From positions 1 through 64,000 of the IMG/VR virus record IMGVR_UViG_3300032116_000001: a stretch of DNA of 64,000 bases; one strand, written 5' to 3'. Origin of the DNA: a virus. Under the pieces are notes generated by a model. The model ran no database searches. It was not told the origin of the DNA and worked only from the letters and a program-made list of their open reading frames with translations. Shown here piece by piece: positions 17,710 through 45,291 of this stretch. Made by a program: the position numbers and the translations under genes. The first letter of the stretch is position 1. Each line of letters begins with the position of its first letter.

Positions 17710-17729
17710 AACTTTTCAAAGGTGATCGC

Positions 17730-17757
17730 CGTATAACAAAAGAACATACACAAAGCA
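17730..17757 (+). promoter_or_regulatory. tRNA-cluster promoter 1
   Basis: AGGTGATCGCCGTATAAC shares GATCG(N)CGTATAA with the promoter before the second cluster. It lacks the TCCCC box and precedes a leader ORF rather than a structural gene. Confidence 0.55.
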
Positions 17758-17777: not shown

Positions 17778-17846
17778 ATGACTCGCCGATATCTTTCACT
17801 GCTAGGACTCTTATCGCTTTCTCTTGAGAAAGCGGCGATTAGCTGA
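17778..17846 (+). CDS. Leu-rich leader peptide of tRNA-Leu cluster
   Basis: A 22-codon ORF after the promoter at 17730. Seven of 22 codons are Leu (CTT, CTG, CTA, CTC, TTA all used), and the next genes are tRNA-Leu(TAG) and tRNA-Leu(GAG). The last Leu codons lie within the stem CGCTTTCTC / GAGAAAGCG, and an intrinsic terminator follows before the first tRNA. This is the layout of an amino-acid attenuator. No ribosome-binding site stronger than AAGGA is seen. Coding role inferred. Confidence 0.6.
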   Translation: MTRRYLSLLGLLSLSLEKAAIS

Positions 17847-17868
17847 TAGATTTTGCGATCAGTGTTTA

Positions 17869-17909
17869 ATCCCCGATTTCTCTCAAGGAGTCGGGGATTT
17901 TTGTTTTTG
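17869..17909 (+). terminator. attenuator terminator before tRNA-Leu
   Basis: AATCCCCGA / TCGGGGATT stem with a T-rich tail, located between the leader peptide and tRNA-Leu(TAG). Its loop TTTCTCTCAAG can pair with CTTGAGAAA in the leader, giving a possible competing fold. Confidence 0.75.
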
Positions 17910-17919
17910 CGTTTCACAT

Positions 17920-18004
17920 ACCGCTCTGGAGTAGCCAAACTTGCTACAGGCAACAGTCTTAGAAACTGTCTCTTTTCTGGGTTGGAATCCCAGGGGCGGT
18001 ACCA
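17920..18004 (+). tRNA. tRNA-Leu(TAG)
   Basis: Acceptor ACCGCTC/GGGCGGT, anticodon arm ACAGT-CTTAGAA-ACTGT, T-loop TTGGAAT, long variable region, encoded ACCA. 85 nt. Confidence 0.9.
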
Positions 18005-18055
18005 ATATTGACAATAGAATAGAGGAAAGAGAAAATAGATTTTCGAGTGATAAAT

Positions 18056-18142
18056 GCGGACGTGGCGGAATTGGTTTACGCGCTACTTTGAGATGGTAGT
18101 CCCCGATTGGGGGTGTGGGTTCGAGTCCCACCGTCCGCACCA
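18056..18142 (+). tRNA. tRNA-Leu(GAG)
   Basis: Acceptor GCGGACG/CGTCCGC, anticodon loop TTGAGAT, class II variable arm CCCCGATTGGGGG, T-arm GTGGG-TTCGAGT-CCCAC, encoded ACCA. Confidence 0.92.
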
Positions 18143-20375: not shown

Positions 20376-20397
20376 AATTGAAAAATGAGAATCTAAT

Positions 20398-20698
20398 CGG
20401 GGCGTGGCGAAATGGCAGACGCAGGGGACTTATAAAATGAGCACTTGTTTGTGAAAGCTGCAAGTGAATGCAATCAAATTCGGTGAAACCTTAACAGTTA
20501 GGCTGATGGCAATACCGAGCCAAGCTAACTCAAAACAGAGTTAGAAGGTGTAGAGACTAGATGGTTGCTGCCTAAGTCGAAAGATATGGCAAAGGTATAG
20601 TCCAGACCACAAAATCCTTTGGGATCGTAGTGAAAGCTATAGTGGTATGAAAATCCCTTAGTAGCAATACTGTGTGGGTTCGAGTCCCACCGCCCCGA
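20398..20698 (+). tRNA. tRNA-Leu(TAA) interrupted by a group I intron
   Basis: Exon 1 20398-20431 and exon 2 20650-20698 join to a class II tRNA: acceptor CGGGGCG/CGCCCCG, anticodon arm GGGGA-CTTAAAA-TCCCT (anticodon TAA), T-arm GTGGG-TTCGAGT-CCCAC. The intron splits the anticodon between U34 and A35. No CCA encoded. Confidence 0.85.
20432..20649 (+). other. group I intron in tRNA-Leu(UAA)
   Basis: 218 nt. The preceding exon base is U and the last intron base is G, as in group I introns. Core elements resemble the cyanobacterial/plastid tRNA-Leu intron: GGCAATACCGAGCCAAGC (P/Q region), GTGTAGAGACTAGATGG (R/S region) and ATAGTCCAGACCAC near P8-P9. No ORF inside; an HNH gene follows the tRNA. 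Confidence 0.82.
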
Positions 20699-20748
20699 TT
20701 AGGTTATATATTGATTACTAATGCGCTTTGTGTGCTTTTAGTATAAGA

Positions 20749-21246
20749 ATGTTTGTGTCACGTTTGCAAAAATATACCCTAGAGGAGATAAAAGAAATAA
20801 TATCTAAATCAAAATCTTATGCTGAAGTAATTCGATCTATTGGTTTAATTCCTGCTGGTGGAAATTACAAAACATTGCAAAGTTTTGTACATGAATACCG
20901 AATTGATACTTCGCATTTTCTGGGCTCAGCTTGGGGGCGAGGAAACCAATTGGATTATCTCCACAATAGCAATAGAAAATCATTAGAAGATGTTTTTTCG
21001 GGAAAAGTAGCTTATAAATCAAGCCATAAATTAAGGCTTCGGCTGATTAAAGAAGGATATTTTGAGCATAAATGCTATAAATGTGGACTAAAAGAGTGGC
21101 AAGGACACGAAATACCCTTGGAATTAGAGCATATAAATGGAGATCATTGTGATAACAGTCTCGAAAACCTCATTATTCTTTGCCCCAACTGTCATGCTCA
21201 AACAGAAACTTATGCTGGTAAAAACAAAAAAAGACGATTAGGTTAA
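20749..21246 (+). CDS. HNH homing endonuclease
   Basis: 165 residues from ATG 20749 (TTG 20728 is an alternative). N-terminal helical region (SKSYAEVIRSIGLIPAGGNY), then CYKCGL, LELEHINGDHCDNSLENLIILCPNCH: an HNH core with two zinc-binding CxxC pairs. Family members cut DNA to spread themselves or adjacent introns. It lies 50 nt after the intron-containing tRNA-Leu, so it may mobilise that intron. Related to the 44272 protein. Confidence 0.85.
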   Translation: MFVSRLQKYTLEEIKEIISKSKSYAEVIRSIGLIPAGGNYKTLQSFVHEYRIDTSHFLGSAWGRGNQLDYLHNSNRKSLEDVFSGKVAYKSSHKLRLRLIKEGYFEHKCYKCGLKEWQGHEIPLELEHINGDHCDNSLENLIILCPNCHAQTETYAGKNKKRRLG

Positions 21247-21539: not shown

Positions 21540-21623
21540 GCCGCAGTGGTGGAATGGTAGACACGGCAAGCTCAAACCTTGCTGCCGAAAGGCGTGAAGG
21601 TTCGAATCCTTTTTGCGGCACCA
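21540..21623 (+). tRNA. tRNA-Leu(CAA)
   Basis: Acceptor GCCGCAG/TTGCGGC, anticodon arm GCAAG-CTCAAAC-CTTGC, variable arm TGCCGAAAGGCG, T-arm GAAGG-TTCGAAT-CCTTT, encoded ACCA. Confidence 0.92.
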
Positions 21624-21691
21624 TATTTTCACATATGCATGACTATGTGAAAAATCCCCTGTTTTCTCTTTCTTGATCGGATATATAAATC

Positions 21692-22321
21692 ATGTTTAAT
21701 ATGAATGTGATTCTTTTCAAGAACAATTCTATCGAAGAAAATTATCTTTTCTCTGGTGAAAATTCTGAAGATGTTGCGAAAAAGGCAGAAAGCAAAATGA
21801 TTGAAATTCTTCGTTCAGAAATGTCTAACTTTGACGAATACACGTCGGAAGATATTGACAACATTTTGGAAGATGGATATGAATCCTTTGGAAATGGAGC
21901 GGTTTTTATTACGTGGCCTGACATTGTTGATGTTGATAAGGAGATTGATTCGGAAAATAATTTTGTTTTTCGTGGCACTATTGAATACTCCATCCCGCAC
22001 ATTGATTCAGAAGTAGTTCGCCTGTGCGCCGCACTAAATGAGCCCATTGAAGTTGGTCTACAGTGGGAATCACATTATCGCAATGGTAATGGCTACGCTG
22101 TCCGCGTTAATGCAGATATCTACTCAGTTGATGAAGAACTTGCTGCCGAGGAATTTAGTGATTATTGGGATTCAGGATGCGATGATGAAATTCGCTATTC
22201 TGGGGACTACAATTGGTCCCTTTTGGGCAAAGACTATAAAGAGGCCATCAGTATTCTCCAAAAGTATGTTGATGAGCAAAAGCGTCGTTACCCAGGCTAC
22301 GATATTAGAATTAGCAAATAA
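21692..22321 (+). CDS. hypothetical protein with domain shared with the 11482 product
   Basis: 209 residues. N-terminal acidic part, then a C-terminal domain (DDEIRYSGDYNWSLLGKDYK) that matches the end of the 11482 protein. Function unknown. Leaderless from a C4 promoter. Confidence 0.72.
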   Translation: MFNMNVILFKNNSIEENYLFSGENSEDVAKKAESKMIEILRSEMSNFDEYTSEDIDNILEDGYESFGNGAVFITWPDIVDVDKEIDSENNFVFRGTIEYSIPHIDSEVVRLCAALNEPIEVGLQWESHYRNGNGYAVRVNADIYSVDEELAAEEFSDYWDSGCDDEIRYSGDYNWSLLGKDYKEAISILQKYVDEQKRRYPGYDIRISK

Positions 22322-22358
22322 TCCCCTGTTTTCTCTTTCTTGATCGAATATATAAATC

Positions 22359-22781
22359 ATGACAATTGACGGAAAGTTGCTTAAAAGACTAATGTGTAGC
22401 AACGAGGCTTTTGATATTTTGGGTGACATCGTAAGTTGGAATTCTGGAGGTTGCTGGATTCTTGCCGAAGCTCTGCGCCGATTCATTGGCGATCAGGCTA
22501 CTATCGTGGCCATCGCTGATGATCGCTGCCAACACCAACATATTGTCGTGAAAGTGGGGAATTTGTATTATGACGCCGACGGAGAGTCGAACGAAGGGCG
22601 TCTGCTGCATCGCTGGATGGATTATGAACGACTCCGTAATCCTCGAATCGTAGGTTTTGATCCAGAACTGGCCGCTGATTTAGAAATTCCTTGCGAAGAA
22701 GAACTTGTAACGCAAGTCTATAACTTGCTGAACTCGCGTCTGAAAAATCCCCTTTTTTCACAATCGGGAGCGCATATATAA
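22359..22781 (+). CDS. possible papain-like (Cys-His-Asp) protein
   Basis: 140 residues. GGCWILAEALRRFIG, HQHIVVKVGNLYYDADG: a Cys at a helix start followed by His and Asp in beta context, the order of a papain/transglutaminase-like fold. I have seen this arrangement in uncharacterised phage proteins. Catalysis is not shown. The last 15 codons overlap the C4 promoter of the next gene. Confidence 0.6.
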   Translation: MTIDGKLLKRLMCSNEAFDILGDIVSWNSGGCWILAEALRRFIGDQATIVAIADDRCQHQHIVVKVGNLYYDADGESNEGRLLHRWMDYERLRNPRIVGFDPELAADLEIPCEEELVTQVYNLLNSRLKNPLFSQSGAHI

Positions 22782-23451: not shown

Positions 23452-23471
23452 CAGGTGATCGTCGTATAATA
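23452..23471 (+). promoter_or_regulatory. tRNA-cluster promoter 2
   Basis: AGGTGATCGTCGTATAATAA, nearly identical to the promoter at 17730; no TCCCC box. Confidence 0.6.
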
Positions 23472-23505: not shown

Positions 23506-23628
23506 ATGAATCATCTCTTATCGACGACAATATGTGGAACAACAGGAACCTCAACAAGAGGAATCCTTTCCCTTGGCGTTATCGGCAAGGATAGTGATTC
23601 TGATTCAGGAGAACCCATCGAATCGTAG
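23506..23628 (+). CDS. Gly/Ser/Thr/Asp-rich leader peptide of tRNA cluster 2
   Basis: A 40-codon ORF. Seven Ser, six Thr, six Gly and three Asp make up 55% of it, and the next intact tRNAs carry Gly, Ser, Thr and Asp. Frequent codons include GGA, ACA, TCA and GAT, which those anticodons read. Its end (ATCGAATCG, 23617-23625) is exactly complementary to CGATTCGAT inside the following terminator, and GATTC upstream can pair with GAATC. This matches a leader-peptide attenuator. Confidence 0.62.
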   Translation: MNHLLSTTICGTTGTSTRGILSLGVIGKDSDSDSGEPIES

Positions 23629-23648: not shown

Positions 23649-23688
23649 AAAGAGGCTCGATTCGATAAGATCGAGCCTCTTTTCTTTT
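23649..23688 (+). terminator. attenuator terminator of tRNA cluster 2
   Basis: Perfect 13-bp stem AAAGAGGCTCGAT / ATCGAGCCTCTTT with a T-rich tail, between the leader ORF and tRNA-Gly. Confidence 0.85.
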
Positions 23689-23759
23689 TAGATATGATGT
23701 CTGGGAAGAGAAAGATCGAATATTGAAAATTTCATACAGGTATAGATATAAAAGTGTTA

Positions 23760-23818: not shown

Positions 23819-23892
23819 GCGAGATTGGTATATGGGTTGTGCCCTAGCCTTCCAAGCTAGAGAAAAGGGTTCGAATCCCTTATCTCGCTCCA
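23819..23892 (+). tRNA. tRNA-Gly(TCC)
   Basis: Acceptor GCGAGAT/ATCTCGC, anticodon arm CTAGC-CTTCCAA-GCTAG, T-arm AAGGG-TTCGAAT-CCCTT, encoded TCCA. Confidence 0.93.
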
Positions 23893-23943: not shown

Positions 23944-24030
23944 GGATGGGTGACAGAGCGATCTATTGTAGCGGTCTTGAAAACCGCCGTGCCAAAAGCA
24001 CCGTGGGTTTGAATCCCACCCCATCCTCCA
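23944..24030 (+). tRNA. tRNA-Ser(TGA)
   Basis: Acceptor GGATGGG/CCCATCC, anticodon arm GCGGT-CTTGAAA-ACCGC, class II variable arm GTGCCAAAAGCAC, T-arm GTGGG-TTTGAAT-CCCAC, encoded TCCA. Confidence 0.92.
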
Positions 24031-24058: not shown

Positions 24059-24097
24059 CAGGTGTAGCTCAGTGGTAGAGCGCCCGCCGCGAAGGTT
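24059..24097 (+). pseudogene. 5' half of a disrupted tRNA gene
   Basis: GCAGGTGTAGCTCAGTGGTA and the following GAGC form a normal acceptor strand and D-arm and the start of an anticodon stem (CCCGC), but no anticodon loop with U33 follows. The matching 3' half lies at about 24625-24652. Confidence 0.6.
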
Positions 24098-24128
24098 GAT
24101 GGTTGCAATATCGATAAATAGATTATGT

Positions 24129-24545
24129 ATGGCAATAACAAAATACAAAGGAGCCGTCGGGCTAACTAATGTAATGGCCTGTCTTGTCAATCAAAAAGCA
24201 AAAATCTTTGTTCCAATAGACGAAGACTGTCAATATGACCTGGTGGTAGATTATCAAAATTATCTTTACAGAGTGCAAGTTAAATATGCTGAGGCAAAAA
24301 ATGGCAAGATCGTTGTAAAGACGCGCTCAACGAATAACTATTGTGAAATTCGTTATACTAAAGATCATTTTGACGTGATTGCTGTTTGGGACAATGTTGG
24401 CAAAAAAGCATATTTTATTTCATCGAATTTAATCACAGAAGGAATGACGGAAATGACCTTGAGATTAGATGCACCAAAAAACAATCAAACTAAAAACATA
24501 AGATTGGCTCGTAATTATGAGCAATTTAATGCTGCGGTCGCATAG
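24129..24545 (+). CDS. PD-(D/E)XK homing endonuclease (I-Ssp6803I type)
   Basis: 138 residues starting MAITKYKGAVG. The segment FVPIDEDCQYDLVVDYQNYL followed by RVQVKYAE gives the P-D-QxK core of the group-I-intron-associated PD-(D/E)XK endonucleases typified by I-Ssp6803I. ATG 24129 is chosen because the upstream frame would translate the tRNA fragment. Its TAG stop lies 15 nt inside tRNA-Thr(TGT). It splits a tRNA into 5' and 3' pieces. Confidence 0.8.
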   Translation: MAITKYKGAVGLTNVMACLVNQKAKIFVPIDEDCQYDLVVDYQNYLYRVQVKYAEAKNGKIVVKTRSTNNYCEIRYTKDHFDVIAVWDNVGKKAYFISSNLITEGMTEMTLRLDAPKNNQTKNIRLARNYEQFNAAVA

Positions 24546-24613
24546 TGGTCGATTGCACCTCTCTTGTAAAGAGGAACTCCACACCGTGGGTTCGAATCCC
24601 ACCCGTAGCTCCA
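24531..24613 (+). tRNA. tRNA-Thr(TGT)
   Basis: Acceptor GCTGCGG/CCGTAGC, anticodon arm CCTCT-CTTGTAA-AGAGG, long variable region (AACTCCACACC), T-arm GTGGG-TTCGAAT-CCCAC, encoded TCCA. The 5' end overlaps the endonuclease stop codon. Confidence 0.9.
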
Positions 24614-24619
24614 TTTTTC

Positions 24620-24652
24620 GCACATATGTGTCAGGGGTTCGAATCCCCTCTC
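24620..24652 (+). pseudogene. 3' half of the disrupted tRNA gene
   Basis: T-arm AGGGG-TTCGAAT-CCCCT followed by CTCCTGC, which pairs with GCAGGTG of the fragment at 24059 (6 of 7 positions). No anticodon arm precedes it. Confidence 0.55.
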
Positions 24653-24682
24653 CTGCTTTGAGTTGAGTGATGATATCCGATC

Positions 24683-25339: not shown

Positions 25340-25416
25340 GGGTATGTAGTTCAGTTGGTTAGAGCACCTGCCTGTCACGCAGGAAGTCGCGAGTTCAAGT
25401 CTCGTCATATCCGCCA
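25340..25416 (+). tRNA. tRNA-Asp(GTC)
   Basis: Acceptor GGGTATG/CATATCC, anticodon arm CCTGC-CTGTCAC-GCAGG, T-arm GCGAG-TTCAAGT-CTCGT, encoded GCCA. Confidence 0.94.
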
Positions 25417-31953: not shown

Positions 31954-32163
31954 ATGAACGATTCAAATCGCTTTGAAGTAATCAGCTCAGGTCCATACAA
32001 TTTGAAGATTGTTGCGCAAACTATGACTGAGTGCATGGATATGATTCGACGAAACTCTGACATGGTGGACTTCTGGGCAGTTTTAGACCATTCTACGAAA
32101 ACCGTGGTCGCTTTAAGCCAGGACTGGAAAGTCTTGCCAACATTCAAACCCGCAGTAAACTAA
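31954..32163 (+). CDS. small hypothetical protein
   Basis: 69 residues (FEVISSGPYNLKIVAQTMTE). Own C4 promoter; its TAA overlaps the ATG of the PARP gene (TAATG), so it is the upstream partner in a two-gene unit and a candidate accessory of the enzyme. Confidence 0.65.
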   Translation: MNDSNRFEVISSGPYNLKIVAQTMTECMDMIRRNSDMVDFWAVLDHSTKTVVALSQDWKVLPTFKPAVN

Positions 32164-33443
32164 TGAAAGAATCTCGATATATTTTCGCTGACGTGAGCGC
32201 GAATAATAACAAGTTTTGGAACATCAAAATTGAACCAAACTTCACGGTCGTAACTTCGTGGGGCCGAGTCGGAGATAACGCACAATCAAAGGAATTTCCC
32301 CACGGAAGCCTTGCAGACGCAGAAAAGTTCTTCGATAGGAAATGCCGCGAAAAGGAACGAAAAGGATACGTTAAGCAAAGAGTTCTGATCGGAGAATACA
32401 CCACGCAAGATAACACTTCGCTTGCGTCAGTTGCCAAACAACAAATCAACACAAATAGCCCCGAATTAGATGAACTAATTGCCTTCCTGACTAAAGCAAA
32501 CGTTCATAACATTCTAACAGCAACAGCTATGGAATACGACACTTCAAAGGGAGTTTTTACAACGCCCCTCGGAGTTGTCACGAACGATGCCATTCAAGAT
32601 GCACGAAGCATCTTGGCATCAATGGGCCTTCTTGTGCATAATCAAGATTGGAACTCCCCCGATTGGAATTCGCTCTTGTCTATGTACCTTACTGCCATCC
32701 CTCAAAAGATTGGACGCAGAAAGCCAGACCCAAGAGAACTCTTCCCGAGCCTTCAAGCTATTCAAAATCAAAGCAAAATTCTTGACGACCTGGAAGCATC
32801 ATTCCAATCTGTCGTGAGCGCACCACTGACGCAGAAAGGGGATGACACAAACACGCCACAAGTGTTTGATGTGAAATTGCATCTTGTAGACGATCAAAGC
32901 ATAATTCGACGAATCAAAAACAAATACGACTCCACACGAAAGACCATGCACGCATCATATCATCTGGGGGTGAAACGAGTCTTTTCTGTCGAAATTAACG
33001 CGATGGCAAAGGCATATGGTGATCGGGGAAAGAACGTCGGCAACGTGATGGAACTCTGGCATGGGACACGAGCGGGGAACCTTTTGAGCATCCTTAAAGG
33101 CGGACTGCAAGTCCCACCCGCATCGAGCCCTCATGTGACGGGGAGAATGTTCGGGGATGGATTGTATTTTTCAGATCAGTCCACGAAAAGCCTCAATTAT
33201 GCCTATGGAGCAGCACCAGGACAAAGAGGAGGAATTGAATCGTCCACGTTCATGTTTCTCGCAGATGTAGCAATGGGACGCCCATTTGTCCCAACGTCCT
33301 ATACACGACCGTCAAAGTACCCCGTGCAAGGACATGATTCAATATTTGCAAAAGCAGGACAATCAGGCGTACACAATAATGAAATGATCGTATACACCAC
33401 CGATCAATGCAACCTCACCTACCTGGTTGAATTCGGAAACTAA
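32163..33443 (+). CDS. WGR-PARP ADP-ribosyltransferase
   Basis: 426 residues. Residues about 5-75 form a WGR domain (VTSWGRVGDNAQSKEF), 97-215 a helical PARP regulatory-type region, and 235-426 a PARP catalytic domain. The H-Y-E triad is present: His300 in LWHGTR, Tyr335 in MFGDGLYFSDQSTKSLNYA, Glu407 in NNEMIVY. The family uses NAD+ to add (poly)ADP-ribose to proteins or nucleic acids and is activated by DNA through WGR. Complete and apparently active. A macro-domain gene follows 1.2 kb downstream. Rare in phages; target unknown. Confidence 0.92.
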   Translation: MKESRYIFADVSANNNKFWNIKIEPNFTVVTSWGRVGDNAQSKEFPHGSLADAEKFFDRKCREKERKGYVKQRVLIGEYTTQDNTSLASVAKQQINTNSPELDELIAFLTKANVHNILTATAMEYDTSKGVFTTPLGVVTNDAIQDARSILASMGLLVHNQDWNSPDWNSLLSMYLTAIPQKIGRRKPDPRELFPSLQAIQNQSKILDDLEASFQSVVSAPLTQKGDDTNTPQVFDVKLHLVDDQSIIRRIKNKYDSTRKTMHASYHLGVKRVFSVEINAMAKAYGDRGKNVGNVMELWHGTRAGNLLSILKGGLQVPPASSPHVTGRMFGDGLYFSDQSTKSLNYAYGAAPGQRGGIESSTFMFLADVAMGRPFVPTSYTRPSKYPVQGHDSIFAKAGQSGVHNNEMIVYTTDQCNLTYLVEFGN

Positions 33444-34682: not shown

Positions 34683-35264
34683 GTGATTAATATCAGTAAT
34701 TTCCGCGGTCCTATCGTCCAAATCGAACTTCGCCAGGGGAGTCTTTTGGAAGCAAAAGACTTAGACATCATTGTTAATGCTGCGAACTGTAAGATGCGCG
34801 GTGGCGGAGGATTAGACGGCGCGGTTCATGATGCTGCAGGCCCTAACCTTCTTGAAAAGCTGAAAGAACTTGCCCCCTACGGCAGCCCGACTTCCCATCC
34901 CGTTGTTACAGATGGCTTTGAAACTGGATTTAAGAAAATCATTCACACTCCTGGTCCTGTGTGGGCTGATGGTGTTTCAGGCGAGCGCATTGCACTTCGG
35001 GCAACATATGATTATGCTCTTGATGCCGCTAATGCGATCTGCAAAAACAAGAATTATAAATCAGTGGGGTTTGGTTCTATTAGCACAGGAATCTTTGGAT
35101 TTCCTCTTGACCTTGCAATGCCCATCGCTCTTGGTGCCGTATCTGAATGGGTGCGGGTTGCGCAAAATGTTTATTTCAACAAAATTGTCTTTGTGATGTA
35201 CGGGGAAGAAGAATACAACAAGTATAAAACAGCTTTTGACGCTATTAAAGCGTGGAACCCGTAA
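34683..35264 (+). CDS. macro-domain protein (ADP-ribose binding/hydrolase type)
   Basis: 193 residues, leaderless GTG at 34683. Macro motifs: DIIVNAANCKMRGGGGLDGA (ADP-ribose binding, Asn in NAAN) and SISTGIFGFPLDLAM. Such proteins bind or remove ADP-ribose from macromolecules. Its proximity to the PARP gene suggests that it reverses or reads ADP-ribosylation, or counters host ADP-ribosyl signalling; that link is inference. Confidence 0.9.
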   Translation: MINISNFRGPIVQIELRQGSLLEAKDLDIIVNAANCKMRGGGGLDGAVHDAAGPNLLEKLKELAPYGSPTSHPVVTDGFETGFKKIIHTPGPVWADGVSGERIALRATYDYALDAANAICKNKNYKSVGFGSISTGIFGFPLDLAMPIALGAVSEWVRVAQNVYFNKIVFVMYGEEEYNKYKTAFDAIKAWNP

Positions 35265-43527: not shown

Positions 43528-43602
43528 GACTTTCCGTGATTATGCGCCACGATCATTAAAAATCCCCTATATCTTATATTCCAATCGGATATATAAGATA
43601 TA

Positions 43603-43773
43603 ATGAAAACCAAACATGTTTTTCGAGTTTACCCCAAGAATGCAACATCTTCCGAGGATGCTTTGGTAATTGAGAAAACCATAAGCCCGAAATCTGTCCT
43701 TCGAGTAATGGGAAACCTTCTTGGCAAGTATAATGCTTCAGAAGTGGCTTTATTGAAATCCGAGGACAAATAA
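43603..43773 (+). CDS. very small hypothetical protein
   Basis: 56 residues (FRVYPKNATSSEDALVIEKT), basic. Leaderless from a C4 promoter. Confidence 0.6.
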   Translation: MKTKHVFRVYPKNATSSEDALVIEKTISPKSVLRVMGNLLGKYNASEVALLKSEDK

Positions 43774-43819
43774 GACTTTTTTAACAAAAAGTCCCAAAAT
43801 CATAGGACGATTTTGTTTT

Positions 43820-43836
43820 TTGATCGTATAATAGAT
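43820..43836 (+). promoter_or_regulatory. tRNA-cluster promoter 3
   Basis: TTGATCGTATAATAG; same GATCG-TATAAT core as the promoters at 17730 and 23452, no TCCCC box. Confidence 0.55.
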
Positions 43837-43850
43837 AAGGACACTTTATT

Positions 43851-43943
43851 ATGAAGACCCACACCACATCAAATACGAATATGGTCTTCACCCGACGCAA
43901 TTCCGCGACGGGCGTCCAACAACGCTGTCGGCGTTCCGCTTAA
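43851..43943 (+). CDS. Gln/Arg/Cys leader peptide of tRNA cluster 3
   Basis: A 30-codon ORF after AAGGACACTTTATT, a leader also seen at 17766. It contains QQRCRR near its end (codons CAA CAA CGC TGT CGG CGT); the tRNAs that follow are Gln, Gln, Arg, Arg and Cys. TGTCGGC in these codons can pair with GCTGACA just before a weak terminator (GTTAC/GTAAC, TTCTTTTT). Consistent with attenuation, although the competing folds are less clear than in cluster 2. Confidence 0.58.
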   Translation: MKTHTTSNTNMVFTRRNSATGVQQRCRRSA

Positions 43944-43956
43944 GTCGGGCTGACAC

Positions 43957-43985
43957 GTTACCACCTGCAAGTAACTTCTTTTTCG
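43957..43985 (+). terminator. possible attenuator terminator of tRNA cluster 3
   Basis: GTTAC-9 nt-GTAAC followed by TTCTTTTT; enclosed by CGGGCT/AGCCCG. Weak stem. Confidence 0.45.
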
Positions 43986-44032
43986 AAGAATTAGCCCGCT
44001 CTCTGAGCGAGACGTCGATTATCATCTCGTGC

Positions 44033-44106
44033 TCGGGGATCGTCTAGAGGCAGGACTCTGGTCTCTGGAACCAGAAGCGGTGGTTCGAATCCATCTCTCC
44101 GAGCCA
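44033..44106 (+). tRNA. tRNA-Gln(CTG)
   Basis: Acceptor TCGGGGA/TCTCCGA, anticodon arm CTGGT-CTCTGGA-ACCAG, T-loop TTCGAAT, encoded GCCA. Confidence 0.93.
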
Positions 44107-44113
44107 GCTTCAC

Positions 44114-44199
44114 TGGGTCTTAGGCGAATTGGTAGAGCCGCCTGTCTTTGGAACAGGACTCCTGAAAAGGTGGAGGTTCGAATCCTCCCGACCCAGCCA
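44114..44199 (+). tRNA. tRNA-Gln(TTG) with an unusually long variable arm
   Basis: Acceptor TGGGTCT/CGACCCA, anticodon arm CCTGT-CTTTGGA-ACAGG, T-arm GGAGG-TTCGAAT-CCTCC, encoded GCCA. The 14-nt variable region with CCT-GAAA-AGG is class-II-like, atypical for Gln. Confidence 0.88.
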
Positions 44200-44271
44200 A
44201 TTAAAGGCTTTATGCATTTTGAAAAAATAATTAAAAAAGGCTTTCTTAACAGAAGTACATAATTAAAACGA

Positions 44272-45057
44272 GTGATTCAAACTTCCAATAAGAAAACAAG
44301 AGTAAAGCGCAGTCGAATTTGGACGATGCCTAAAGACGAGTTCGCTCAACTAGTGGCCTCAAGTCAAACTTATGTCGAAATTCTCCGAGCCATTAACTAC
44401 ACCATACGAGGAGGAGCTTTTCGAATTTTAAAAGAACGAATTGCGACAGAAATGATCGACGATTCACATATATTAAAGAATGGAAGGCAAACCATTTATG
44501 CCCATAGATTCAATACTCGGTCAGATGACGATATATTTTGCGAAAATTCTACATACAATAGTGGCCCTGCCCTGAAAAAGAGAATGATTAAGCTAGGCTT
44601 ACCTGAAGAATGCACAAAATGTGGGCTTGGTGCAACATGGAATGATGAACCTCTATCTCTGCAAGTAGACCATATCAATGGGGTGCGCAACGATAACAGA
44701 TTAGAGAATTTGAGGCTTCTGTGCCCAAATTGTCATTCTCAAACCGAAAATTTTGCTGGCAGAAAGTTGAACGCAAAAAACAAATCATGTCCAGAATGCT
44801 GCGCTAAGATCAGTGGATACCGTAAAGATCAGAGATGCCAATCTTGTGCCAATAAGATCAGGTCTAGAGAAATGCAACTAATATCAAAACCATCAAAAGA
44901 CGAGCTTCAAGATATGTTGTGGAAAATGCCCGCGACTAGGATTGCTAAGATATACAATGTGTCCGATAAAACAGTTGGTAATTGGGCTAAATCCTACAAA
45001 ATTGACAAACCGAGCCGTGGACACTGGGTCAAAAAAAATACTCCCCCCCCCTTGTAG
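44272..45057 (+). CDS. HNH homing endonuclease with zinc and HTH domains
   Basis: 261 residues from GTG 44272 (ATG 44326 is an alternative). N-terminal region like the 20749 protein (SQTYVEILRAINYTIRGGAF), HNH core CTKCGL, LSLQVDHINGVRNDNRLENL, CPNCH, then extra cysteines (CPECC, CQSC) and a C-terminal helix-turn-helix (ATRIAKIYNVSDKTVGNWAK). Free-standing homing endonuclease inside the Gln-Arg-Cys tRNA cluster. Its TAG stop is at positions 8-10 of tRNA-Arg(TCG). Confidence 0.87.
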   Translation: MIQTSNKKTRVKRSRIWTMPKDEFAQLVASSQTYVEILRAINYTIRGGAFRILKERIATEMIDDSHILKNGRQTIYAHRFNTRSDDDIFCENSTYNSGPALKKRMIKLGLPEECTKCGLGATWNDEPLSLQVDHINGVRNDNRLENLRLLCPNCHSQTENFAGRKLNAKNKSCPECCAKISGYRKDQRCQSCANKIRSREMQLISKPSKDELQDMLWKMPATRIAKIYNVSDKTVGNWAKSYKIDKPSRGHWVKKNTPPPL

Positions 45058-45123
45058 CTTAATGGATAGAGCGCAGCACTTCGGATGCTGATGTTATGGG
45101 TTCGAGTCCTATCGAGGGGGCCA
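45048..45123 (+). tRNA. tRNA-Arg(TCG)
   Basis: Acceptor CCCCTTG/CGAGGGG, anticodon arm CAGCA-CTTCGGA-TGCTG, T-loop TTCGAGT, encoded GCCA. Overlaps the HNH gene's stop codon. Confidence 0.9.
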
Positions 45124-45134
45124 AAATTTAAAAC

Positions 45135-45210
45135 ACGCCTGTAGCTCAGTGGATAGAGCATCAGCTTGCGGAGCTGAGGGTCGGAGGTTCGAACCCTCTC
45201 AGGCGTGCCA
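45135..45210 (+). tRNA. tRNA-Arg(GCG)
   Basis: Acceptor ACGCCTG/CAGGCGT, anticodon arm TCAGC-TTGCGGA-GCTGA, T-loop TTCGAAC, encoded GCCA. Confidence 0.92.
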
Positions 45211-45216
45211 ATATAC

Positions 45217-45291
45217 GGCCACGTACCCAAATGGTTAAGGGCTCCCTCTGCAAAAGGGATGTTGCGAGTTCGATTCTCGCCGTGGCCTCCA
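45217..45291 (+). tRNA. tRNA-Cys(GCA)
   Basis: Acceptor GGCCACG/CGTGGCC, anticodon arm TCCCT-CTGCAAA-AGGGA, T-arm GCGAG-TTCGATT-CTCGC, encoded TCCA. Confidence 0.93.

Follow-up and report, generated by a model that had tools for sequence, protein, structure and literature searches.

Why should a short open reading frame (ORF) that carries a run of Gln, Arg and Cys codons near its end stand directly upstream of tRNA genes for exactly these amino acids, and could its translation govern them? The question is raised by positions 43820–45291 of the 64,000-base stretch of DNA analysed here (the window), which comprises bases 1–64000 of a 378,848-base IMG/VR virus record (the 379-kb phage). The best explanation was found to be that phage tRNA operons are controlled by ribosome-mediated transcription attenuation, which we consider likely (probability about 0.85), all the evidence for it being computational.

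The leader and tRNA genes of the Gln/Arg/Cys unit

A preliminary description of this locus, made from the sequence alone, had claimed a 30-codon ORF with Gln-Gln-Arg-Cys-Arg-Arg codons close to its end, a GATCG-TATAAT promoter similar to that of other units, a start shared with a Leu unit, and tRNA-Gln, -Gln, -Arg, -Arg and -Cys genes downstream. Each of these claims held. The leader ORF MKTHTTSNTNMVFTRRNSATGVQQRCRRSA spans 43851–43943 on the plus strand, as do all the window features described below, and starts with ATG; its peptide ends in ...VQQRCRRSA, and the control codons at 43917–43934 are CAA CAA CGC TGT CGG CGT, exactly as claimed. With CGA and CGC further upstream in the ORF, all four CGN codons are present. 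A Shine–Dalgarno (SD)-like AAGGAC lies at 43837–43842, 8 nt before the ATG, and the promoter-like TGATCG-TATAAT at 43821–43832, read directly in the sequence and missed by a sigma-70 consensus scan, places the ATG 18 nt to its 3' side. The related motif TGATCGNNGTATAAYA precedes both the Leu and the Gly/Ser/Thr/Asp units of the window, and the AAGGACAC start is common to this leader and the Leu leader. The promoter pattern of the window phage matched no other virus. With TATAAT as the −10 box, the Gln/Arg/Cys transcript would have a 5' leader of only ~12 nt, compared with ~35 nt in the Leu unit, and its SD might be partly cut off.

The tRNA genes called by ARAGORN on the same strand are tRNA-Gln(CUG) (44033–44106), tRNA-Gln(UUG) (44114–44199), tRNA-Arg(UCG) (45048–45123), tRNA-Arg(GCG) (45135–45210) and tRNA-Cys(GCA) (45217–45291). 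The ORF of an HNH endonuclease (44272–45057; phrog_10822, E 1.2e-47) is inserted as a passenger in this cluster after the second tRNA.

No strong U-tailed hairpin was found in the plus strand between leader and tRNA (43944–44032). The sole terminator-like site before tRNA-Gln on this strand is a weak hairpin, GTTAC..GTAAC followed by TTCTTTTTC (43956–43984), which is doubtful and was not called by the scan. Folding prediction gave a candidate antiterminator-like helix between GGGCTGA (43947–43953) and TTAGCCC (43991–43997), which is predicted with a probability of 0.96 as long as the ribosome has not moved beyond the last Arg codon; by the end of the leader it is gone. This point of loss is, in the model, where an antiterminator ought to switch. 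A terminator competing with this helix was looked for and not found. A switch in which the leader end sequesters the acceptor strand of tRNA-Gln was considered and rejected, because 57% of shuffled upstream sequences do likewise. Since it has no convincing intrinsic terminator of the kind expected of an attenuator, the Gln/Arg/Cys unit can be said to work like an attenuator and is not a proven member of the class; its leader half is shown, and its terminator half, or output step, is inferred from the sister units.

Sister units in the same phage and in other phages

The window contains two further units. In the Leu unit, a promoter-like TGATCGCCGTATAA read in the sequence (17723–17736) is followed by the leader ORF MTRRYLSLLGLLSLSLEKAAIS (17778–17846) with the Leu codons CTT CTG CTA CTC TTA CTT CTT, and by the intrinsic terminator AATCCCCGATTTCTC..GAGTCGGGGATT-TTTGTTTTT (17868–17908; dG −20.1). 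Directly after the terminator lies a tRNA-Leu(UAG)-like gene (17922–18006), which was recognised by eye and called neither by ARAGORN nor by Rfam. ARAGORN called tRNA-Leu(GAG) (18056–18142) and tRNA-Leu(CAA) (21540–21623), and the tRNA-Leu(UAA) gene (20397–20700, end approximate) carries a group I intron at 20421–20624 (Rfam RF00028). An HNH-like ORF (20728–21246) adjoins this intron-split gene on its 3' side. The Gly/Ser/Thr/Asp unit has a promoter-like TGATCGTCGTATAA, likewise read in the sequence (23456–23469), the leader ORF MNHLLSTTICGTTGTSTRGILSLGVIGKDSDSDSGEPIES (23506–23628) and the intrinsic terminator AAAGAGGCTCGAT..ATCGAGCCTCTTT-TCTTTTT (23649–23690; dG −21.1), and ARAGORN called tRNA-Gly(UCC) (23819–23892), tRNA-Ser(UGA) (23944–24030), tRNA-Thr(UGU) (24531–24613) and tRNA-Asp(GUC) (25340–25416) behind it. 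At 24062–24660 in this cluster lies a tRNA-like gene split by an insertion with an ORF (24072–24545), and the 3' half of the gene appears after tRNA-Thr. The tRNAs of the window that lie outside the three clusters (Thr-GGU, Met, Arg-UCU and Lys) have no such leader and stand directly behind genes or a promoter.

Three more matching leaders were found outside the window in the 379-kb phage. The Lys leader MRHNILKRKPKHY stands before two tRNA-Lys genes, and its terminator lacks a good U-tract. The nine-amino-acid leader MKAMQVNNMEIIAAGAFNATAVVFAIPASPWYFEPGRKTETLT stands before tRNAs for Trp, Ser, Ile, Phe, Glu, Glu, Ala, Pro, Val, Val, Pro and Tyr. The His leader MSDDHHHSTKLHMAS... (MSDDHHHSTKLH...), at 324692–324760 of the phage record (G000 C1; L042 1193–1261), precedes tRNA-His; its ORF overlaps the first 30 nt of the tRNA, and there is no terminator. 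With this geometry a translating ribosome would enter tRNA-His, and a separate, translation-based tRNA gate is conceivable here. The same phage encodes a tmRNA (tag AENNFAFAA) at 294065–294860 of the record (L040 566–1359), followed by two tRNAs with CUA anticodons that could be amber suppressors; similar CUA tRNAs were seen in several other large phages scanned. The phrog_2 terminase was looked for in the 379-kb phage and not found, and single-query IMG/VR searches with a neighbouring protein and with RIIA returned no relatives.

The search was extended to the tRNA regions of about 39 records, comprising RIIA relatives and known large phages, with a filter blind to composition that required an ATG, an SD, 7–50 codons, a distance of at most 330 nt from the tRNA, and an intrinsic terminator between stop and tRNA. 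Its output consisted mostly of leaders matching their tRNAs. The design was recovered in a distant 476-kb phage (IMGVR_UViG_3300018080_008436, with the near-identical copy 3300017991_005548), Agrobacterium phage Atu_ph07, Salicola phage SCTP-2, Bacillus phage G and Synechococcus phage S-PM2. Seven units belong to the 476-kb phage: MSVQVQQNNQNNQ... before Gln/Asn, MYATTKTTKTTKTTKK... before three Thr and three Lys tRNAs, ...REPEREEPP... before Glu/Pro, ...FRFF... before two Phe tRNAs, MNVVRDMHIIRRDWSHR... before four Arg tRNAs and those for Trp, Ile, Val, Asp, Met and His, ...IAIAVVAVAVVA... before Val/Ala/Ile, and MKSLSLSLCSSYLSL... before Cys, Tyr, Leu and Ser. Most of its tRNA leaders have a promoter, CTTGAAAAG-N13-YTATAATRGGGGYAAC, in common, which within IMG/VR recurs in the near-identical relative and in no other record. 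The Atu_ph07 leader ...EIIAIERNVFVRAEAAMFWYPI... precedes tRNAs for Ala, Arg, Phe, Pro, Ile, Tyr, Trp, Met and Glu. SCTP-2 has ...VDHNIAMHNDHINNDIDM... before Asp/His/Met/Ile/Asn, ...TTRSSERTSEVRSTERET... before Ser/Glu/Thr, ...QYQLQQLPLVLYPYNGG... before Leu/Pro/Tyr/Gly/Gln and, recovered by a relaxed search and not by the blind filter, ...KGGFVWAFSFKK... before Lys/Phe/Trp. The phage G leader ...CSWFEFDTDFTDVFYCEYTFYSLYTF... stands before Cys, Asp, Phe, Tyr, Glu, Thr and Ser, and the S-PM2 leader ...SKQIEIIMESDCRYWHI... before Lys, Tyr, Asp, Glu, Ile, Ser, Met, His, Gln, Trp, Arg, Val and Pro.

Blind hits without a match, or not open to a comparison of composition, were one in each of two other records (G001 and G020) and one in KVP40, where an ORF and a terminator precede a tRNA cluster that covers almost all amino acids, so that composition cannot be compared. 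The filter also let through a few additional ORFs on the 5' side of the same terminators. In seven other RIIA-related phages that carry tRNAs, no match went below p 0.03. No such leader system was found in the tRNA-rich phages XacN1, CcrColossus, T5 and Aeh1, nor in RaK2, 121Q, Mildred21 and LR756511, in searches confined to tRNA regions and, for some records, to a part of these; the tRNA-Arg/Gly cluster of LR745208, the first BLAST hit, also lacks a leader. At the DNA level, homologues of the leaders of Atu_ph07, phage G, SCTP-2 and S-PM2 occur only in records of those same phages. The comparison across phages is one of composition and not of descent, and no relative was encountered whose homologous leader had diverged.

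Codon match and predicted RNA switch

The preliminary description had held that three matches between leader and tRNA identity are hard to ascribe to chance, and that the idea would fall if random short ORFs matched equally often. This comparison was run in the window on 133 SD-preceded ORFs of 8–50 codons on both strands, and it came out for the finding. The Gln/Arg/Cys, Leu and Gly/Ser/Thr/Asp leaders each ranked 1/133 for their own tRNA set, with uncorrected stretch p values of 8e-7, 1.6e-5 and 2e-7, respectively; the runner-up ORFs gave 1.5e-4, 9e-4 and 9e-4, leaving margins of about 180-, 54- and 4500-fold. Permutation of the three window units alone gave only 1 in 6. When the six leaders of the 379-kb phage were assigned to its six clusters, the real assignment was the best of 720. 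Over 20 units, misses included, the summed log-likelihood of the leaders given their own tRNA sets was 84.6, and none of 300,000 random leader–tRNA assignments equalled it (mean −179.5, sd 27.1, maximum −21.0; z 9.7). The Atu_ph07 and S-PM2 leaders are individually weaker on composition because their large tRNA sets leave little to match. At all three levels, the window, the whole phage and the comparison across phages, leader codons thus agree with the downstream tRNA set far more closely than chance would allow.

An amino-acid attenuator is expected to show an SD and a short ORF in the 5' leader, control codons cognate to the downstream genes, an intrinsic terminator, and an antiterminator that excludes it in a position-dependent manner. 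The SD and short ORF are present in all the units listed, and the control codons are cognate to the downstream genes. The terminator was found in the Leu, Gly/Ser/Thr/Asp and nine-amino-acid units and in 14 units of other phages, and the distance from stop to terminator is 15–38 nt in all 18 units, from six phage lineages, that were examined for an antiterminator. In this examination the leader segment complementary to the terminator 5' arm was compared with 2000 dinucleotide shuffles of the leader. Complementarity was significant at p<0.05 in 15/18 units, in five of them at p≤0.001 (Fisher 2.5e-23); the exceptions were SCTP-2 Lys/Phe/Trp (0.06), Lys (0.08) and the nine-amino-acid unit of the window phage, where the antiterminator was no better than shuffles (p 0.46). 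In every one of the 18 units the complementary segment lies in the 3' half of the ORF or just past its stop. The 5' arm of the Leu terminator is complementary to TCTTGAGAAAGCGGCGATTA in the 3' end of the ORF (p 0.026), and that of the Gly/Ser/Thr/Asp terminator pairs with CATCGAATCG at the ORF end (p 0.008).

The switch was modelled by folding, at each codon, the RNA free ahead of the ribosome, with the terminator 3' arm not yet made. In this model the terminator 5' arm is sequestered when the ribosome stands on or before the control codons and is released afterwards; in the Leu unit the fold switches after codon 14. The share of residues belonging to the tRNA set was 0.76 of the 12 before the switch compared with 0.24 after it (Wilcoxon p 7.6e-6), and it was higher before the switch in 17/17 testable units. 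The antiterminator segment, however, constrains its own codons, and this alone depletes control codons after the switch. Over the 18 pooled units, the model predicts a position-dependent, mutually exclusive antiterminator and an order of folds that follows the logic of trp-type attenuation.

Proposed mechanism, alternatives and relation to known systems

According to the proposed mechanism, transcription would start at the phage promoter and a ribosome would follow on the leader ORF. When the charged tRNAs are plentiful, the ribosome would reach the stop and cover the 3' segment of the ORF, and the terminator would form before the first tRNA gene. When they are scarce, it would stall on the control codons, and the free 3' segment would pair with the terminator 5' arm; with this antiterminator formed, the polymerase would enter the very tRNA genes that read those control codons, and the phage would make extra tRNAs only in response to a shortage in the cell. 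Host tRNA decay, cuts by host anticodon nucleases and a phage codon demand that outruns supply are possible triggers. For the 18 pooled units of six lineages, the codon–tRNA match, the SD, the terminator, the antiterminator complementarity and the predicted fold switch are shown; that the leader is translated, that transcription terminates and that the outcome depends on charging is inferred, as is the trigger in infection. The general “tRNA attenuation” that the preliminary description proposed is supported not only for “this phage group” but also for cultivated jumbo phages unrelated to it, with the qualification that the terminator anatomy was seen in sister units and is only inferred for the Gln/Arg/Cys unit.

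Among phages with the system the number of units ranges from one to seven, and each unit is adapted to the amino acids that its own tRNA cluster serves. On a bolder reading, towards which the evidence leans by a narrow margin, many large phages run a codon-resolved panel of sensors, in which a tRNA operon is turned on only by ribosomes stalled at the codons that its tRNAs read, and which replaces the particular tRNAs lost to host decay or anticodon nucleases. Because the hosts of the phages with this design include Gram-negative bacteria, Gram-positive bacteria and cyanobacteria, the design would have arisen repeatedly or be ancient.

The alternative that survives best, although we regard it as unlikely, is that the leaders do sense shortage through the position of the ribosome, but that in the Gln/Arg/Cys and His units this would act on the maturation of the tRNAs or the stability of the RNA instead of on termination. 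A ribosome moving along the His leader would run into tRNA-His and unfold it, and a stalled one would leave it free. The overlap of the His leader with the first 30 nt of the tRNA and the absence of a terminator there favour this view, as does the Gln/Arg/Cys unit, which has no strong terminator and yet loses its 43947–43953:43991–43997 helix as the ribosome passes the control codons. Against it stand the acceptor sequestration at tRNA-Gln, no better than in shuffles (57%), an effect that would reach the first tRNA only, and the ordinary terminators of the sister units. It is very unlikely that the small ORFs encode functional peptides, such as anti-host proteins, whose residue bias is unrelated to tRNAs. 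Several are indeed annotated as ordinary genes of unknown function (phage G gp86, Atu_ph07 AUZ95228.1, SCTP-2 PBI_SCTP2_335), but the peptides vary between phages and units except in codon content, their bias tracks the downstream tRNA set and weakens where the RNA switches, and the end of the ORF also serves as the antiterminator. An accidental sharing of amino acids between short ORFs and the tRNA clusters behind them, for which it can be said that the three window units alone give 1 in 6 and that the reported stretch was chosen by eye, is all but excluded by the first rank among 133 ORFs for all three leaders, by 0/300,000 permutations over 20 units and by the independent antiterminator evidence.

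Attenuation as preferred here resembles the trp, his, leu, thr and ilv attenuators in its SD, short leader ORF, control codons, antiterminator at the ORF 3' end and intrinsic terminator before the first gene; the theory of attenuator control and codon choice has been described (PMC1183508). Unlike these operons, the phage leaders regulate the tRNAs themselves and not biosynthetic enzymes, they are carried by a phage, a single leader frequently covers several amino acids in one run (up to about eleven), and several independent units occur per genome. The pheST and pheA genes of enterobacteria are attenuated through a leader with Phe codons. There, too, a leader peptide governs a gene of the tRNA-charging machinery, but the target is a synthetase gene and a single amino acid, whereas the phage units act on tRNA genes. 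The T-box riboswitches of Gram-positives likewise respond to whether a specific tRNA is charged, but they bind uncharged tRNA directly and without a leader ORF; the Rfam T-box covariance model had no match in the window at the gathering score, and none at E≤5 in 43780–44110. Phage tRNA genes are also reported to be under transcriptional control in the T4 tRNA operon (Goldfarb and Daniel, 1980, cited in PMC9693318). The Atu_ph07 paper (PMC6102473) discusses tRNAs by codon usage, and the words attenuation, leader and terminator do not occur in it. In the literature searched, which excluded preprints and most subscription papers, no account was found of phage or bacterial tRNA genes being controlled by a leader peptide. 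The mechanism is already known; what is new is its use on tRNA operons, with leaders for several amino acids and several units per phage, and as far as the searched literature shows this would be the first case of leader-peptide attenuation on tRNA genes.

Why and when phages use their own tRNAs is an old question, so far answered mostly by codon statistics. If the proposal is true, phage tRNAs would be responses to named shortages, measurable by read-through, and not a constant supplement; the compensation and anti-nuclease hypotheses would become directly testable in the cultivated phages G, Atu_ph07, SCTP-2 and S-PM2; and the units would provide a readout of which tRNAs turn limiting during infection.

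Two minor observations concern the remainder of the window. Between about 18 and 45 kb, AAAATCCCC...TGATCGGATATATAA motifs recur (for example at 21676–21692, 22342–22359 and 43586–43603), with an ATG 5–12 nt after TATATAA and no SD, and resemble promoters of leaderless mRNAs; unlike these sites, most tRNA leaders keep an SD and a longer 5' end. In addition, a protein with a PARP-like C-terminal region (32163–33443; phrog_23333 “polymerase”) is encoded near a macrodomain-looking protein (34683–35264), and the two might form an ADP-ribosylation pair.
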